From Lewinellaceae bacterium (GTDB lineage: Bacteria > Bacteroidota > Bacteroidia > Chitinophagales > Saprospiraceae): 64,000 nucleotides of DNA. The stretch is from contig CANJPT010000006.1 of NCBI GenBank assembly GCA_947476195.1, forward strand, positions 1 to 64,000, read 5' to 3'. A program made the position numbers and the translations under genes. The notes beneath the pieces were generated by a model, which had not been told where the DNA came from, ran no database searches, and saw only the letters and a program-made list of their open reading frames with translations. Of the stretch, positions 5,201 through 14,702 are shown piece by piece; position 1 is the stretch's first letter, and each line of letters opens with the position of its first letter.

Positions 5201-6836
5201 CCACGCTTTTTTCTGCCAATCCGCAGGAATTACTGGCGGAGGCTGTGATCATGTAGGGCCCAAATGCGGCGTTCAGTTTAACTGGAAAACTGTCCTGAAT
5301 AGCACCATTCACCTGGTACAACAGGCTGGAGTCGAATGGAGCAGGGGTAAATTCTGTTTCCAGACAAGCCAGGGCCGGGATGTCGAGGGCTATTTCAATG
5401 GGTAGTTCTACGGTAAAATGAATCGTATCGGCACGCCTGCAAACACCTATTCCACTGTAGGTAAATGCTTCAAAATCTCCCGGAGTATTGGGCACAAAGA
5501 AAATTCCGGAGGTGTCGTTGTAGAAACTTCCTGAAGGCCCCGACCAGTTTCCGGCCGGATAGGCAAATATGCGTATGGTATCAGAATTGATGCAAGCCGT
5601 CACGTCCCCATTCGGATAAGCAATAGCAATATTGGGGGCAGCGCGAAGCGCGAAAGTGTCATAGGCATGAACTTCCCCGCAAAAATTCTTCATGACCGCT
5701 TCGAGAAAATAAATATCGTTTGAAATTGGCAGAAAAATTGGGAAAGTATCCAGTTTAATACCGTTAAGGGTATAGGTCACGTTCGAGTCTAGCTTAATCG
5801 GTGTATAAGTAATCGCAGTACAGGAATCTCCCTGCGCTTGTAAACTGACCGCAGGTAATTTGATAACATTGACAATCACTTCTGCCCGGTCGTTGGCGAT
5901 ACAATTATTGCTGACCTCCAGATAAATCTTGTAGGTGCCTGGCTGTGAGAACTGCATGGCCACAATATTGGTATCTGGCGCTGCCGGATCGGGGTACCAC
6001 TGCCAGCCGCCAGCCGGACCCTCTACATTCCATGAGAAACTGGAACTGGAGAATGAGTTTGCTCCCGTCAACTGCAGGTATTCCAGCGAATCGTCCATGC
6101 AAATATTGTACTCGTTGCCTATTACATTGATTGCATTGTTGGTGATCGGTATCAGTTCGGCATCGGGCGGGTATGATATGGTAAAGGTTCCGGATGAACA
6201 CACCGTATCACATACGTTCCCTACACAGTAGGTTACATTATAGGTCCCACCGTCGGTGAATACATATCCAAGGGTATTTCCGGTGTAATACAGGCTATCC
6301 CCCAGATCCCATACCTCATAATTGACGCCGGCAACGGGACAGTCGGACAGTCCACCCCCCCCACCCACTAATGATCCCTGAAGGGTAACTCCTTCGTTTG
6401 CGCAGGGGTTAGACGACATAAAAAAGTTGGCAACAGGCGGATTCCGGAATGTTAGAATGAAAGCACTGTTGGTGGGGTCGGCCAGTGAGTCGGCCTGGTA
6501 AGTTTGCAAAATAATCGTGAACGACTTCTGATATTGGCAAGTGCCATAAAAGTCAGAAAGGTTGTACACATGCAACTGCGAGGGTGGATTCAAGCTGCCA
6601 GGAACCACCGTAAGGGGGGAATTATCCCCCCAGTCAATTTCAAAATGATCTATACTGTCTTTGCTTGGATCATTCGGATCCACAATGATATTTACACAAA
6701 TCTCTTCCAGTGGACCGGTGATACAGTAAAACTGTACCCCGTCACAAGTGGTGATGGTTGGGTTATTGTAGGTCTGACCGAAAAGCCGGGCTGAAACAGC
6801 CAACAACCCAAGGAGAGACAGGATAGTCTTTCTCAT
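2214..6836 (-). CDS. Giant secreted PKD-repeat protein with gliding-motility-associated (CHU_C / T9SS type B) C-terminal domain
   Basis: 1540 aa, signal peptide, repeated PKD motifs (WGDG..., FGDG...YGAQGNF), and C-terminus FIPNAFTPNNDGVNDIF...GWDGLFRGVKAEAGSYRFTI. Confidence 0.9.
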   Translation of the reverse strand: MRKTILSLLGLLAVSARLFGQTYNNPTITTCDGVQFYCITGPLEEICVNIIVDPNDPSKDSIDHFEIDWGDNSPLTVVPGSLNPPSQLHVYNLSDFYGTCQYQKSFTIILQTYQADSLADPTNSAFILTFRNPPVANFFMSSNPCANEGVTLQGSLVGGGGGLSDCPVAGVNYEVWDLGDSLYYTGNTLGYVFTDGGTYNVTYCVGNVCDTVCSSGTFTISYPPDAELIPITNNAINVIGNEYNICMDDSLEYLQLTGANSFSSSSFSWNVEGPAGGWQWYPDPAAPDTNIVAMQFSQPGTYKIYLEVSNNCIANDRAEVIVNVIKLPAVSLQAQGDSCTAITYTPIKLDSNVTYTLNGIKLDTFPIFLPISNDIYFLEAVMKNFCGEVHAYDTFALRAAPNIAIAYPNGDVTACINSDTIRIFAYPAGNWSGPSGSFYNDTSGIFFVPNTPGDFEAFTYSGIGVCRRADTIHFTVELPIEIALDIPALACLETEFTPAPFDSSLLYQVNGAIQDSFPVKLNAAFGPYMITASASNSCGLAEKSVVSEFIAPEDVEIYSRDTVLCSGTGRIYLEASDTILGFWEGEHIFQNSNGFYFDPVDPGSYLLVFVRGFDLCRRTDSIRVNVAPGNAVEAGEDLVVCNSELAVQLANASPGGYFNGFALSGNVVNISQLALDTSYLYTYINPGLPDACNLDTRTVTVYGPPAAGFSLDRDTACRGEVVSVLPEATSGVVHLIDWGDGTSGLGLLEHAYTEPGSYSVQYTAFTVNPLTGEPLCTVTDGTQVVIPAEQLSGVIRFSVFPDSGCAPLTVYFSNLSPNDGRQYVWDMGNGQKYYGYNPPPVTYYDGITDTTYQVRVSMINGCGLAEFTHTIKVAPRPRADFNILFDEPCSGSVAELVLGSYGNSLQNNYYVSNGHQYTGSFDQPTSFQLFTGDQPDTVGIWLVSSNLCGSDTAWHQVVVNSPDVTVLVGLPDTTRLCEGLQAQVISFATPGSEIVWKVSTGESYSGDTISVLFKYPGQYFITLYAYGCGYDSVTLPVTVYPLPDIDLIHDQQKCPGEPVSFWVNSVAPGIQLWFGDGDSSEQRNISHVYPGPGTYAPFARVTTQRGCESTASGSLIIHELPTALATATDSICTFTTAQFQGVSNNPDASCSWYFGDGTSSDGCTLIHEYGAQGNFRAILKVLSPEGCPAADTTEVIVRTIPEANFSFSLPQACAPATASFLSQASGATAVRWEVSDGYSTDDFVFERTFNQAGNYSATFYTSNDGICPDTAHVSFEVLRLPVLQVATTLHCIAGAGTDLVATTGPQDNLFVSGPSYNVPGAIHNGLAPGSYTVRAESKEGCFQDTIVYVLPVNELLLHVEQDYYDLILGEYAPLSAKVNKADVDFVWDPSSWLSDPAIADPVSRPIQPVIYTVVATDNNGCTKIDTVRIALSIDYDASLFIPNAFTPNNDGVNDIFYSRSNVPEALRIAYFRIFDKYNETVFDLAELEGHENATPEDRLFGWDGLFRGVKAEAGSYRFTISVVFPDGVNRNFAGTVQLIR

Positions 6837-9800
6837 TATCTGATTAATTTAAGAGTTCCATTAAAAATACTGACCTCATTATCAATGAACCGTGCGGCAA
6901 TCACGTATCTGTACGAACCTGCCTCTGCTTTTTGTCCCCTGAACGTACCATTCCATCCGAAAACGGGATTTTCAGGCGTTATCAGACTGCCGGTATCGGT
7001 AACCCGGGCCTCAAAAACCTGTTCGTTGTACTTGTCAAACACCCTGACGTAGTCCAGACTAAGTACCGAAGGACTGCTGCTGCGCACGTAGAAAATATCA
7101 TTGACCCCGTCTTCGTTCGGCGTAAAGGCATCCGGGATATAGATTTCGTCTTCTCTTGTGATTTTTAGCACCACCCTTACCGTGTCTATTCTGACACATC
7201 CGGTTGAATTGGTGACATACACATAGTAAACCATGGATCGTAGCGGTGTGCAGACCGGATTGCTGATCGTAGCGTTGTTCAGAAACAAATCGGGTTTCCA
7301 GACAAAAGTCACATCGGCTTGATTAGAAGTTGTATTGAACTGCACCGATTCTCCGAGGTGTACCTCGAAGTAATCCGTGGCTACCTGCATTTCGACCAGA
7401 TCGGGGGCTGACAAATGAACAACAGTATCCAGCCGGCAACCAATCTGATTCAGGATGGCGATATTATACTCCCCGGTATCGAGGGCTTCGTGAAAATCAC
7501 CAATCTGATAGTAGCCGGGCGCACTAACCGTGACAATATTGGTTGGATCGGTGGATATGCGCAGATCAATAAAGTCCTCCGGGTCACATACCGGATCAAC
7601 CAATATTTCTGCCCGTATTGCATCGTCGAGATGCAGGACAACTTGCCCGGTATCCGGACACAATCCATTGTTACGGGCAGTCATACTTATCAAATGGGAT
7701 CCGGTTGTCGTGAAAAGCAGATCAAATGCTGTTTGGTAGGATACCGGAACACCATTGTCTTTCCAAATGGCATCAGTTGCAGCCGCTGAAATAACCTGAA
7801 ATGATGCCGTTACGGGCACGCAGGTCTGCGGAAGCTGATATGCAATTGCTGCGCTTGGTGTTTCCACTACCTGTAGCTGCGAGGTATCTGAATGGAGACA
7901 CCCGTTCGGGGCAAAAACGGTGAATATGGCCTGATAACTGCCCGCTTGGGTGTATATATGTTCGGCTTCACATTCAGGCTTCACATTTCCATCGCCAAAC
8001 CGCCAGTAACAGTTGACAGGCGGTGGAGTACTGGTTCCTGAAAAAAAGACTTCACGGCCTGTGCAGGCAACATTATTCAATACCGTCTGAATATCAGGAA
8101 GTTCTAATACCTCAATTTGTCTTGTATCGGTAGCCTTACATCCAGGAAGTGTGCTAACCGTGGCAGTAACGATGTAATTGCCTGGGAAAGAATATTCGTG
8201 TAAGGAAGACGTCTGGGTGGTGGAGGTGCCATCGCCGTAATTCAGCAAAACAGCCGAAACATTGGCATTCACCTGAAAAGCAGTCTCTTCGTAAACGCAT
8301 AGGTTCGGGTCTATCACCAGGCCCACCTCAGGAGTGGGATAAACCTGGATTGGCAAATTGATGCTGTCATACCCGCAACCAAATGTGTAGAGGGTGGCCG
8401 AATACATACCTGGCGAGTTGAAGACAACAGAAACGGTGTCGCTGAGGAAGGTATTGCCATCTGAAAACTTCCATAGAACCGGTGCTCCATTGGTAGACTG
8501 GCTGTACAATTCCACCGGAATACCGGTACATAGTGGTGTGTTGGGTGTGCCGATCAGTGCATTGACAGCGGCGGGGTGGACCACCACTTCCTGATAGGCT
8601 GTATCGGAACTGCAGCTATTGGAAGATACAAGCCAGATTCCTATAGTATCGGGTTCGTTCTGGGCATAAAAATGGAAAATTGAGGATATTCCTGATGTAG
8701 CCGTGCTGACTTCTCCGGTAGAGGTGTAATAGGTATTGCTTTCCGGGTATCCGGTACTCAGTATGGAAGCCTCCAGCGGGACACCAGAACAGATTTCGTT
8801 CAAAAAAAGTGCAAAATCAGCCACTGGATTAGGCAGTACTTTAATGATCTGTTCCGATTCGTAAAACCCACAGCCGTTTGGCACGCTCAGACGAATGTGA
8901 TAAATTGTGTCAGCTGCGCCATCCGGATAAGTCACCGTTGGCGGCGAAAAGCCATAAAAACTCTGTCCGTAGTCCGTTTCCCATAAATAATGGTTGTGCT
9001 GAGCTGTGCTCAGATTAACAAACTGCACCGTAAGCGGTGCACAACCGAAATTGGGCTGTGCAACGAAATTCACGGCTCCAGGTGGTAATGGCGCAGGAAT
9101 TTCAACGATGGCCGAATCCCAGATGGTACACAATGGCAGGCCTGTTAACGGATTGATGTTATAGGCCGCGTAATGAAGCGAATACGTTCCGGGTTGGTTA
9201 TAACTGGCCGAGAACGTATTGATAACCCCGTTTCCCCAGTCGGTCTCATATGCTACCCCGCTGATAGCATTGGGCTGTAAGGTGAGCAGTTCACCCTGAC
9301 AAACGGTGTCTCTGTCGAGCATAAAACCGGCCTCTGGCAATGAACGGACTACCAGTGTCAATTCGTCGCTTTTGCAACCAGGAGGAAAGGTGGGGTCAGT
9401 ATATAGGTATTTATAGACTGAATCACGTTTTATCAACGACAAATCAATCATATTTCCTGAAACAGCAAATCCGCTGAAAAATCCGCCAGGTGAGTAGCCT
9501 GTAATTTCAACTGACGAAGCTGTTTCGCAAACAAAGATATCCGTACCTGCCTGAATACTATCCGAAGGGGCAACTTGAATGGTTATAGTATCCCTGCTCA
9601 GGCAAATACCCAGGCCCCGGGTATATACCAATTGGTATGACCCCGGTGTGAAAGGATCAAACCAGGTTTGTCCCTGATACTTGAATAGATGTTCACCACT
9701 CCAGAAGCCTGTCGAATCGCTGGCCCAAAGGGGAAATGATGGCGTCCCCGTGCAAAGTGCTGTATCGGGAGAGAGGATATAGACTTGTTCGGGATAAATC

Positions 9801-11473
9801 ACAAGCAGCGTGGTGGATACAGTTGTGTCTGTACAGGTATTCTGCACCGTTGCTATAATGTGAAATGGACTTTGCGGGGCCTCGAGGGTAACCGGAAAGC
9901 TGTCGATCACTACACCATTTATGGAATATATCGCTTCTGGTTCAAAGAGTGTTGGGGTGTAGTCCCACAGGAGACAGGCCACTGAAACCGTATCCAGCGA
10001 AAGCGTGATCGGCTTGTCTACCTTCAGCGACAGGGTATCAGCCCGGCGGCAAATACCATAATCGCGGAAAGCGATGAATCGGTACGATCCAGGAACATTT
10101 TCCACAAAAAAGGTATCCTGAGGTGTAATTTGCAAGCCTGCCCCATTCCAAAATACTGGCAGGTTGGCATTCAGCCTGATGGTATCCAAATTGATGCACA
10201 CGGCTAATTTGGAGGTGTCGGGGGACAGAATAACGACATCCCGGGCCGTTTTAACCCAGAAGGTATCTTTCAGCACCTGGTATTTGCAGGTATGTGTCAG
10301 CTCAGCCTCCACATAGTATGGTGTGGTACTGACCGGTAGCGTCACTGGAAACGAATCGGTTTGTACGCCGTTGATCCGGTAAACTGCTCCTGGGATATAT
10401 GGGGAAGGGGAATAGGATAAATCCACACAGGTATCCCGCTGAGCTGTGAGCGATAAAACCGGAGGCTCAACTACCTCAACGGTCAGTGTTACGGTATCCG
10501 GTAGGTTGCAAAAATTGTTGGCCTTGAGCTTGATCTCATACACACCCGGTTCGATGAAAATGATTCGGGCCACGCTGGTGTCAGGAGGATAAGGGTTTGG
10601 ATACCAGAACCAGTTTTGCTGTCCGTTGCCAAGCCAGGCGTAGAAATTTTCGTACAGGGAAACTCCGCCGTCAAGCCTGATGATTGACCAGGGTTCCTCA
10701 AAACAAACCCTGTAGTGCAAATTACTGATCAGCGTAGCGCCCGAATCAATCACCGCATCAGCCTCCGTAGCATTGAAGGCACCAATAACGGTGGAGCGAC
10801 AAACCGTATCGCATACATTACCGGCACAGTACTTCAGCGTCTGAACGCCCACGGTATCCCAGTAATAAGTTACCTGGTTGCCCAGGAAAAAAGTTCCGTC
10901 CTGCAACAGCCACGATTGGTAATTCAGGGCCTTATCGGAACAAGGCACTTCCTCCCCGGTACCTATAAAAAGCACTGGGTCTCCCACGCAGGACACATAA
11001 GGATCTACCGTAAAATTAGCCTTTGGAGGATTGCGTAGCGTGAGTAAAAAAGCGCTGTTCGTGGTCTCAACCGTGATTATTGTGTAATAAGTACGCAGAA
11101 TAACCACGTAATATCCTTGATATGCGCAGGAATCTGCAAATTCGGTAACGTCGTACAGGTGCGATTGACTCGGAGGATGAAGCCCACCGGGAATAATAGT
11201 TGGTGTTGAATTATCGCCCCACTCAATTTCAAAGTAATCAATAATACCAAGGTTGCTGTAATTTGAATCTACAACAATCTCTACGCAAGCTTCCATTGTA
11301 TCCGCTGTGACGCACAAATACTGCTTGCCATCGCAGGCAGCAATAGTGGGATTGTTATTCTGCGCGTGCGCAGCGCTACATAGCACAACAAATAGGAGGA
11401 ATAAAAGAGCCGTAAAATCTTTTACTTTCAAAGATGGATTTTCACAACGATTCGTTTTTTGATATACTTTCAT
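6836..11473 (-). CDS. Giant secreted PKD-repeat protein, paralog of the adjacent gene, CHU_C / T9SS type B C-terminal domain
   Basis: 1545 aa, collinear with 2214..6836 at both ends (NNPTIAACDGKQYLCVT..., YIPDAFTPNEDGVNDIF...GWNGTFRGQKAEAGSYRYVI). Confidence 0.9.
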   Translation of the reverse strand: MKVYQKTNRCENPSLKVKDFTALLFLLFVVLCSAAHAQNNNPTIAACDGKQYLCVTADTMEACVEIVVDSNYSNLGIIDYFEIEWGDNSTPTIIPGGLHPPSQSHLYDVTEFADSCAYQGYYVVILRTYYTIITVETTNSAFLLTLRNPPKANFTVDPYVSCVGDPVLFIGTGEEVPCSDKALNYQSWLLQDGTFFLGNQVTYYWDTVGVQTLKYCAGNVCDTVCRSTVIGAFNATEADAVIDSGATLISNLHYRVCFEEPWSIIRLDGGVSLYENFYAWLGNGQQNWFWYPNPYPPDTSVARIIFIEPGVYEIKLKANNFCNLPDTVTLTVEVVEPPVLSLTAQRDTCVDLSYSPSPYIPGAVYRINGVQTDSFPVTLPVSTTPYYVEAELTHTCKYQVLKDTFWVKTARDVVILSPDTSKLAVCINLDTIRLNANLPVFWNGAGLQITPQDTFFVENVPGSYRFIAFRDYGICRRADTLSLKVDKPITLSLDTVSVACLLWDYTPTLFEPEAIYSINGVVIDSFPVTLEAPQSPFHIIATVQNTCTDTTVSTTLLVIYPEQVYILSPDTALCTGTPSFPLWASDSTGFWSGEHLFKYQGQTWFDPFTPGSYQLVYTRGLGICLSRDTITIQVAPSDSIQAGTDIFVCETASSVEITGYSPGGFFSGFAVSGNMIDLSLIKRDSVYKYLYTDPTFPPGCKSDELTLVVRSLPEAGFMLDRDTVCQGELLTLQPNAISGVAYETDWGNGVINTFSASYNQPGTYSLHYAAYNINPLTGLPLCTIWDSAIVEIPAPLPPGAVNFVAQPNFGCAPLTVQFVNLSTAQHNHYLWETDYGQSFYGFSPPTVTYPDGAADTIYHIRLSVPNGCGFYESEQIIKVLPNPVADFALFLNEICSGVPLEASILSTGYPESNTYYTSTGEVSTATSGISSIFHFYAQNEPDTIGIWLVSSNSCSSDTAYQEVVVHPAAVNALIGTPNTPLCTGIPVELYSQSTNGAPVLWKFSDGNTFLSDTVSVVFNSPGMYSATLYTFGCGYDSINLPIQVYPTPEVGLVIDPNLCVYEETAFQVNANVSAVLLNYGDGTSTTQTSSLHEYSFPGNYIVTATVSTLPGCKATDTRQIEVLELPDIQTVLNNVACTGREVFFSGTSTPPPVNCYWRFGDGNVKPECEAEHIYTQAGSYQAIFTVFAPNGCLHSDTSQLQVVETPSAAIAYQLPQTCVPVTASFQVISAAATDAIWKDNGVPVSYQTAFDLLFTTTGSHLISMTARNNGLCPDTGQVVLHLDDAIRAEILVDPVCDPEDFIDLRISTDPTNIVTVSAPGYYQIGDFHEALDTGEYNIAILNQIGCRLDTVVHLSAPDLVEMQVATDYFEVHLGESVQFNTTSNQADVTFVWKPDLFLNNATISNPVCTPLRSMVYYVYVTNSTGCVRIDTVRVVLKITREDEIYIPDAFTPNEDGVNDIFYVRSSSPSVLSLDYVRVFDKYNEQVFEARVTDTGSLITPENPVFGWNGTFRGQKAEAGSYRYVIAARFIDNEVSIFNGTLKLIR

Positions 11474-11804: not shown

Positions 11805-11948
11805 TAGGCCTATACCCCGTATAACACTGGTCTAATCTTCACAACGGCTAATGTATGTGCGTTTAATAAGCACGCAAATTCTGGAATGTAGACAGGCAGC
11901 TAAAACGAGAGACAACAATACAAATGAAAAAAATAATGTATCTCTCTT

Positions 11949-12039
11949 CATACTACTGGACATTTTTGTTTTGCCCACAGACCTATAAGGTTTCCAAAAA
12001 TCTTATATGTCTCGATTTTAGAAAATGTCCAGTAGTGTG
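11949..12039. mobile_element. MITE-like element copy 1 (91 bp), 18-bp terminal inverted repeats, 9-bp TSD ATCTCTCTT
   Basis: Starts CATACTACTGGACATTTT and ends AAAATGTCCAGTAGTGTG. Flanked by ATCTCTCTT at 11940-11948 and 12040-12048. Same length as copy 2, near-identical in reverse orientation. Confidence 0.85.
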
Positions 12040-12359
12040 ATCTCTCTTACTTTATATAGGTAATATTTCAAAAATTATGTCTGGCCCAAGCCTTCAAAAA
12101 GCAGTCAAAGATCGTTTTTTAGCAGAATTCTTTGGCTTTTTCAGGTGTTCTTTTTCTCACAATTCGATACCCTCATCGCCCAAAAGTAACTAAAAAGATT
12201 TGATTGGCGCAGGGATTATTTAAATTGTGTGGGAATAGACTTTTTAGGTGACTTTTATGCTCAATCAAGTCATTTTTGTTCGTAGCCCAGGTTTGGAATT
12301 TTCTGGTCGTAGTCAGTTCGTTTCATGGATACCAAGCATTGCAGGAAGTTGACAGAATC

Positions 12360-12450
12360 CATACTACTGGACATTTTCTAAAATCGAGACCTATTAGGTT
12401 TCCAAAAACCTTATAGGTCTGGGGGTAAAACAAAAATGTCCAGTAGTATG
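12360..12450. mobile_element. MITE-like element copy 2 (91 bp, reverse orientation), 9-bp TSD GACAGAATC
   Basis: Starts CATACTACTGGACATTTT and ends AAAATGTCCAGTAGTATG. Flanked by GACAGAATC at 12351-12359 and 12451-12459. Confidence 0.88.
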
Positions 12451-12573
12451 GACAGAATCGCTTTCTGGCATAACGCCCAACATCTTCAGGATTCGCTTTT
12501 GGCCCTGGTTAAGTTGCGCTGTCCAAGTTGGTCGTGTAGATCTTACTCAGGGTTTTATGCTGGTATTTAAGGT

Positions 12574-12627
12574 GGTAAAAGTTGACGAGCGAAGTGGGAA
12601 ACCCGCTTCGCTCGTCAAACTTTTACC
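12574..12627. repeat. Strong hairpin (about 21-bp stem with one bulge), possible terminator
   Basis: GGTAAAAGTTGACGAGCGAAG...CTTCGCTCGTCAAACTTTTACC. A T-run follows on the + strand. Located about 100 bp past the 3' end of the minus-strand gene 12729..14702. Confidence 0.55.
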
Positions 12628-12728
12628 GCTTTTTAATCTATTAAGGAGCATGTTTGAAGGACAGGGAAAGCCTTTACCAGCAAGATAGTTGCTGGCCAAA
12701 CTCCAATTTCCGAACAAATGCTAACACA

Positions 12729-14702
12729 TCACTTCTTCAATGAAGGTTCCACTGCATAAGCCTTATCAAACCACTCTCCAGATTTTTCCGGCTGCCCCAT
12801 ATCCTTATAAGCCGATCCGATGTAGAAATAGAGTATACCGGATTTTTTGTTGTCGGCATATTTAAGGGCCTCTTTCCACTGCTCAATGGCTTGCGGGAAT
12901 TTTTTCTGCATGGCAAGCACGGCACCCAGATTGCGTCGGCCATCTACAAAGCGCGGGTCGAATTCAACTGATTTGCGGTACACCTCCTCGGCCTTCTCAG
13001 GCTGTCCGCGGCTGAAATAAATTTTGCCCATATTGGAAAGCACCTCAGAGTTGTTGTAGCGGTATTTTAGTGATTCCTGGTAGTCCGTCAAGGCTTTATC
13101 CCAGGCGGCGCGCTGTTCTTCCGGGTTTTTCAGCACTTCTCCCAGGCGGAAATACGCGAGGCCACGGCTGCCGTATGCGTCATGGTATTGCGGATAAAGC
13201 TCTATGCATTTGTCGTAACATTCGATTCCTCGTTTCACTTGTTCCACGTCTTTTACGATGCTTTCCTTTTCGTCCATACCAATGCGCACCGTTTCCAGGG
13301 CATTGTGGTAATTCAATTTGGCACAATTGGGCGAATTAGGTAGATCTGCTGCATACAGTGATGCACTGTCGTACCATGCCCCGTTTCGGAAGACCGTTTT
13401 AAGTGAATACGCAGCAATCAAAACGCCCACAGCCATCCACAAGGCTATTCCCTTTCCGTTGGGGTTCCAGACTTCTCTGAGGTCATTGATCTTGAATATT
13501 TTGCAAAACAGCCAGCCCACAGCCAGCGCAAAACCAAATGAAGGGATATAAAGCAAACGTTCCCCGTAAGAGGTACCGATGAGCATCAATACGTTGCTAA
13601 AGACCGAAAAAGTGGAGAGATAAAAAAGGATCGCAAAGGATAGGATATGCTTGCGTGACAAATTAGCCAAAGCCCAAACACCCATCCCGACATAGGTGAT
13701 AAAGCCTGCTATGGCCCGCCAGTCTCCAAAGCTCACCACTTTCATTTGCGGGTAGCCCATGTCGCACACAAGTGGGTGAGGGAGGAGTAGCGTCCACAGG
13801 TAGCGTCCACACATCATGAATGCCGAGGCTAGACGTTCTCCCTGATTTTTGGTCTCTACCATAAAGTTATCCAGGATGGAATAGGATTCAGGATAGGGTT
13901 GTGCGTCGAGGATATGTTTCCGGATAAGCAGGAAAACGACTGCCGGGACCAGTAACGCTCCCGTAGTTTTTGCGATCTTCCCCCCGGATGCCGACGAAAA
14001 ATACCACATGGCCAGGGGAAAAACAGCCATAAATGTGAGCGAACTTTCCTTGGAGAACATTGCAATCATATAGGAAAGTACAGCTGCAAAAAGCCATTTC
14101 AGATCATCTGTTGCAATGAATTCCCAGATGGCCCGGAGTGTGAGGGTGCTGAATAGCAATGCGAGAATCTCGTCGCGGCTTTTGATATTGGCCACTACTT
14201 CCGTGTGTATCGGGTGTGCCATGAATACCAGCACGGTGATCGCAATCAGTGCAGGCGGATAGTTGACCAGGATACGCCGCCAGGTATTCCACAATACCCA
14301 GCCTGTGAGCGCGTAGAACAGGGCATTCAATGCGTGACCAAGCATAGGCTTGTCTGGCGCGATTTGCCACTCGAAGGCAAACATGGTGAGCGGAATAGGC
14401 CGGTAGAGCGATCCGACGCTATTCCAGGAACCAAAACGGTACTCGGTAGAGAAGATCAGGCCAATATTTTTCAGACCGCCTTTTGTGATCCAGTTCGACT
14501 TAATGATTGAAAAGTCATCAAGGGTGTATTGATGGCCCAGGGTGTTGGCATATAACAAAAAGCCCAGAGCTGCGGCTGCTATACCCACCCAAAAGGCGCC
14601 CTTTATGTTAGGCAATGGACTTTGCACAGCGGACCTTAGACTTTGGATATTTGATTGTTTGCGGGATTGTGGAACAAATTTATCAGGTTTCTTTTTTGAC
14701 AT
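12729..14702 (-). CDS. Multi-TM glycosyltransferase-like protein with C-terminal TPRs (TMTC-like architecture)
   Basis: Multiple TM helices with YANTLGHQYTLDDFSII and AHPIHTEVVANIKSRDEIL, followed by TPR repeats (NMGKIYFSRGQPEKAEEVYRKSVEFDP). Confidence 0.75.
   Translation of the reverse strand: MSKKKPDKFVPQSRKQSNIQSLRSAVQSPLPNIKGAFWVGIAAAALGFLLYANTLGHQYTLDDFSIIKSNWITKGGLKNIGLIFSTEYRFGSWNSVGSLYRPIPLTMFAFEWQIAPDKPMLGHALNALFYALTGWVLWNTWRRILVNYPPALIAITVLVFMAHPIHTEVVANIKSRDEILALLFSTLTLRAIWEFIATDDLKWLFAAVLSYMIAMFSKESSLTFMAVFPLAMWYFSSASGGKIAKTTGALLVPAVVFLLIRKHILDAQPYPESYSILDNFMVETKNQGERLASAFMMCGRYLWTLLLPHPLVCDMGYPQMKVVSFGDWRAIAGFITYVGMGVWALANLSRKHILSFAILFYLSTFSVFSNVLMLIGTSYGERLLYIPSFGFALAVGWLFCKIFKINDLREVWNPNGKGIALWMAVGVLIAAYSLKTVFRNGAWYDSASLYAADLPNSPNCAKLNYHNALETVRIGMDEKESIVKDVEQVKRGIECYDKCIELYPQYHDAYGSRGLAYFRLGEVLKNPEEQRAAWDKALTDYQESLKYRYNNSEVLSNMGKIYFSRGQPEKAEEVYRKSVEFDPRFVDGRRNLGAVLAMQKKFPQAIEQWKEALKYADNKKSGILYFYIGSAYKDMGQPEKSGEWFDKAYAVEPSLKK

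Follow-up and report, generated by a model that had tools for sequence, protein, structure and literature searches.

Among the miniature elements described from bacteria, one of the closest to the repeats reported here is MITECca01 of Cardinium (PMC9769881), a member of the Bacteroidota. A MITE from Porphyromonas gingivalis (PMC4596501) belongs to the same phylum, and MITEAba12 (PMC6382973) is a bacterial IS-derived MITE reported across a family of genera. On the side of possible parent elements, the IS4Sa subgroup of insertion sequences is tabulated with sizes of 1150-1750 bp, ends of the form CA------T and direct repeats of 8-10 bp (De Palmenaer et al. 2008, PMC2266710). The two 91-bp units analysed below, from a Lewinellaceae bacterium, represent a real and new MITE family, which is a new member of this known type of element and involves no new mechanism.

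The 91-bp units and their family in the host genome

The window, by which we mean the whole stretch of 64,000 nucleotides that was analysed, lies on contig C6 of a 4.76-Mb draft assembly (224 contigs, 97% complete). Both units sit in a 1255-bp non-coding gap between minus-strand genes at 6836-11473 and 12729-14702, where the following features were mapped.

11940-11948, no strand: left target-site duplication (TSD) of copy 1, ATCTCTCTT, read from the sequence
11949-12039, plus strand: MITE copy 1, 91 bp, the query of the genome search, with 40+ relatives in the genome
11949-11966, plus strand: left TIR of copy 1, CATACTACTGGACATTTT, from the TIR pattern search
11979-12012, no strand: internal palindrome of copy 1, with two mismatches between its arms
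12022-12039, minus strand: right TIR of copy 1, with one mismatch, CAC for CAT (CACACT...)
12040-12048, no strand: right TSD of copy 1, ATCTCTCTT, read from the sequence
12351-12359, no strand: left TSD of copy 2, GACAGAATC, read from the sequence
12360-12450, minus strand: MITE copy 2, 91 bp, with internal orientation opposite to that of copy 1
12387-12420, no strand: internal palindrome of copy 2
12451-12459, no strand: right TSD of copy 2, GACAGAATC, read from the sequence

The original prediction had placed two 91-bp units at exactly these positions and is correct to the base. It had also described TIRs of about 18 bp, an internal palindrome in both copies and an exact 9-bp TSD on each, all of which are present in the sequence. 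The palindrome takes the form AGACCTATAAGG.../...CCTTATAGGTCT, and the opposite orientation ascribed to the copies is borne out by their pairing as a 97-nt inverted repeat (88%). At up to three mismatches, the 18-bp TIR occurs four times in the window, compared with 0.04 occurrences expected by chance. At 91 bp both units are within the size expected of a MITE (below about 400 bp). Inspection of open reading frames found neither a transposase nor any other gene inside the two units and all dissected family members are non-coding, as the claim that no gene is encoded had it.

A further and very strong hairpin at 12569-12632 of the window (-49.7 kcal/mol, z -11.7) is bordered by T/A-rich flanks and lies about 97 bp beyond the 3′ end of a gene encoding a 657-aa TPR protein. 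It was considered as a third MITE and ruled out, as the palindrome occurs only once in the genome. This hairpin is probably a bidirectional terminator.

The genome-wide TIR search that had been proposed as a check returned 201 matches to CATACTACTGGACATTTT at up to three mismatches, versus 8 for a reversed-pattern control, implying approximately 95 dispersed elements (about 90-100). When 62 distinct units were dissected, 56 proved to be exactly 91 bp long, and the others measure 72, 89, 90 (two units), 95 and 205 bp. Exact 9-bp TSDs flank 37 of the 62, another 11 have duplications with one mismatch, five have other near-duplications, and nine have none that are recognisable. No exact 9-mer match between flanks arose in 200 reshuffles of the left and right flank pairings. 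Duplications of constant length are thus present at many different sites, whereas the original prediction had named their absence at new sites as evidence that would count against it.

Target sites share a symmetric base preference. Among the dissected units, 59% of TSDs have G at position 1 and 59% have C at position 9, and at the second base outside the TSD the left flank has G, and the right flank C, in 55%. The mean divergence of a copy from the consensus is 5.7%, and positions 25-26, 46-49 and 89 separate the copies into subfamilies. At the right end the third base is free to vary, giving CAC, CAG or CAT. Nearly all copies are intergenic, with 3 of 46 scored copies located within a mechanically called open reading frame. 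Searches with MITE DNA in phage and plasmid collections gave no match.

Two observations accompany the family. A 137-bp composite at C7:29320-29456 (L013:1459-1595) joins a 42-bp partial unit to a 95-bp unit within an intact outer 9-bp TSD, CTGCATCAG, and is counted among the nine units without a recognisable TSD; its structure points to one insertion inside another and a later deletion, or to template switching. To the left of the MITE at C2:6354 of the same genome (L031) lies a further palindrome, CCCATACTGATAGTCTCACCTAAAGTGAGACTATCAGTATGGG, which is perfect and may represent a second family of repeats.

A partner insertion sequence in a sister species

The end pattern was searched in 61 genomes comprising the host genome, others of its genus and others of its order. 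MITE ends occur in many genomes of the genus and hardly any outside it. The autonomous partner that had been predicted to exist elsewhere was found in a sister species (same-genus MAG REEB487, JAGWYI01; here G004), in which two MITE-type ends enclose 1195 bp with one intact 372-aa open reading frame (L094:998-2192). The 91-bp unit matches this IS at 19 of 20 bp at the left end and at 24 of 25 bp at the right end.

The 372-aa transposase matches Pfam DDE_Tnp_1 (E=1e-16), and its best NCBIfam family is IS4_2 (E=1e-42), where its 146 bits fall just below the cut-off of 152. The catalytic residues D100, D164 and E269 are invariant among four relatives, as are Y262, R265, E269 and K276, which make up a complete Y-(2)-R-(3)-E-(6)-K signature. 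The cultured relatives that we found are approximately 40% identical or less.

Two related IS elements, with nearly identical ends, are carried on complete plasmids. The IS of Spirosoma rhododendri is 1203 bp long with ends CAGACTACTGGACATTTT and an exact 9-bp TSD, TAAATCCGC, and that of Persicobacter is 1217 bp long with ends CATACAGCTAGACATTTT and an exact 9-bp TSD, ATTCGGGCT. The end sequences are CATACTACT for the partner IS, CAGACTACT for Spirosoma and CATACAGCT/CATACAACT for Persicobacter. In G004 the single intact copy of the IS (contig C244) has no TSD around it, which we read as the result of recombination or MAG misassembly; fragments at contig edges show that this genome carries several copies of the IS. 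The sizes of 1195, 1203 and 1217 bp, the CA------T ends and the 9-bp duplications are consistent with placement in the IS4Sa subgroup, as are the complete YREK signature and a relaxed third end base (CAT/CAC/CAG).

Other candidates for the partner were set aside. One same-genus genome (G009) holds about 20 near-identical copies of an IS4-type element encoding a 388-aa protein (L134, L141, L143 and others; 28% identity), which was rejected because its ends are TTTCAGGGGGTACACATT. The same genome yields 128 MITE-end matches, yet no partner with those ends was recognised in it. A locus with a single TIR (L053) was rejected as an IS end because no transposase adjoins it.

In the host assembly no full transposase was found. 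It also lacks the fragments of transposase genes that mark contig edges in G004, and therefore true absence of the gene, rather than its loss during assembly, is likely. However, a deleted remnant persists, namely a 205-bp element at C215:1140-1344 flanked by a 9-bp TSD, GTTACCGTG. It consists of the first 83 bp of the IS (88%) joined to approximately the last 126 bp (68%), and it still codes for transposase residues 334-372 (64% over this stretch). This internally deleted element is the expected first step on the way from an IS to a miniature element, and because it encodes the C-terminus of the partner transposase, the partner lineage once lived in the host genome.

Elsewhere in the genus, units with the same ends measure 75, 83, 87, 90, 112, 122, 124, 131, 134, 238, 293 and 390 bp, usually with exact or one-mismatch 9-bp TSDs. 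Their interiors differ and most are palindromic. The inner palindrome GACCTATAAGGTTT...AAACCTTATAGGTC recurs in 9 of 42 genomes; in some cases it is enclosed by other variants of the ends, in others it belongs to a longer palindrome that lacks MITE ends. Since the interiors differ and the palindrome is found elsewhere, the interiors look exchangeable. One 72-bp unit (L203) lacks a palindrome arm yet retains a perfect TSD. It is conceivable, though we consider it rather unlikely, that IS4Sa-type ends have repeatedly captured differing pre-existing palindromes in this genus, and that the hairpin interior itself makes the element more mobile or less harmful, for instance because it blocks read-through or aids excision.

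Probable mobilization in trans and alternative explanations

We assign a probability of roughly 93% to the interpretation that the units form a high-copy non-autonomous family with ends derived from an IS4Sa-type element and are moved by that transposase in trans. The MITE ends would descend from an IS4-family element of about 1.2 kb with a single transposase gene. Supplied in trans, the transposase is predicted to bind the ends of about 18 bp, excise the element and join it to a 9-bp staggered cut. Preferred targets would be symmetric sites in intergenic DNA that start with G and end with C, and repair of the staggered cut would leave the 9-bp duplications. Cut-and-paste transposition is established for the IS4 family, and by analogy the same chemistry may apply to the MITE.

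Judged from sequence comparison, an IS4Sa-like transposase is the most likely mover of the family. Mobilization in trans by such an enzyme is the best supported mechanism. The putative pairing of MITE and transposase draws on the identity of their ends, on the length of the duplications and on the intermediate with its internal deletion. That a 9-bp-staggering transposase moved the units, as first proposed, is supported both by the 37 copies with exact duplications and by the 9-bp TSDs of the related IS elements. In the host itself, we infer that mobility has ceased or relies on an IS copy missing from the assembly.

That assembly, with its lack of an intact transposase, leaves some room for a different and unseen IS that shares these ends, such as a member of some other IS4 subgroup or, in the host species, a transposase that has diverged; the situation in G009, where the only IS4-type element found has other ends despite the abundance of end matches, points the same way. 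We regard this as improbable, as the 205-bp remnant in the host genome codes for the C-terminus of the partner transposase itself. Still less credence attaches to reading the units as conserved genes for structured RNAs, or as intrinsic terminators, maintained by selection on a hairpin. The two units do fold into long hairpins (-38 and -45 kcal/mol), the copies are all short and mainly intergenic, and three compensated pairs occur in the palindrome arms, a number only mildly above that in shuffles. The hairpin, however, is simply what TIRs and a palindrome together produce: none of the 18 TIR pairs is changed on both sides, 19 of 50 copies do not form the third pair, and a conserved position with a covarying helix is not seen for these units. 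Gene ends are not favoured either, with copies in 24 tandem, 8 divergent and 7 convergent gaps, and exact 9-bp duplications flank the copies. An Rfam search gave only sub-threshold scores to miRNA-type hairpins, with no credible family. Least probable of all is that the units are palindromic repeats of a REP-like or Correia/RUP-like kind and that an unrelated enzyme, such as a REP-associated tyrosine transposase or one of IS630 type, moves them. The appeal of this reading lies in the palindromic interior and in the occurrence of the core palindrome without MITE TIRs in sister species (L172, L179, L180, L181). REP elements are not known to produce a TSD, and Correia, RUP and IS630-type elements are flanked by TA duplications, whereas 9-bp duplications predominate in the 91-bp family and its ends agree at nearly every base with those of an IS4-family element.

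Fixed loci, which the original prediction had linked to structured RNA genes, are likewise not what sister species display. One host copy (L018) lies between two convergent genes whose orthologous pair in G010 encloses no element, and at a second locus (L015) the element is absent from three relatives; both comparisons hold at the level of the locus, the intergenic DNA being too diverged for a base-exact empty site. Downstream of orthologues of the 657-aa TPR gene, 1.75-2.9 kb in each of five relatives is free of such ends, with synteny broken there and no exact empty site found for the window copies. DNA of G010 and G065 compared at the L015 site (L266 and L265) also contains a short repeat, ATTGACCACATT, many times over.

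Comparison with known miniature elements

The probable IS4Sa-like mobilization of the 91-bp family leaves the picture of how MITEs work unchanged. For a little-studied group of Bacteroidota, where elements of this type fragment assemblies and complicate annotation, the family is a well-supported addition, high in copy number and with an IS4Sa-like parent that has been identified. The many miniature families of the genus, which share their ends and differ in their hairpin interiors, also offer a natural series for studying how MITEs originate and whether they benefit from a palindrome inside.

The family resembles MITECca01 in being IS-derived, in its very high copy number (169 for MITECca01) and in its mostly intergenic location. 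The two differ in their parents: that of MITECca01 belongs to the IS982 family and still has intact copies alongside it in the genome, whereas the parent of the 91-bp family is of IS4 type and is represented in the host assembly by a remnant only. The MITE of P. gingivalis likewise has an unusual interior, there a minisatellite, and is comparable as far as its published description extends, by description rather than by ends, in another organism and with another interior. MITEAba12, too, is likened by its description rather than by its ends or partner, and it shares with the family described here an IS-derived origin, in different bacteria.
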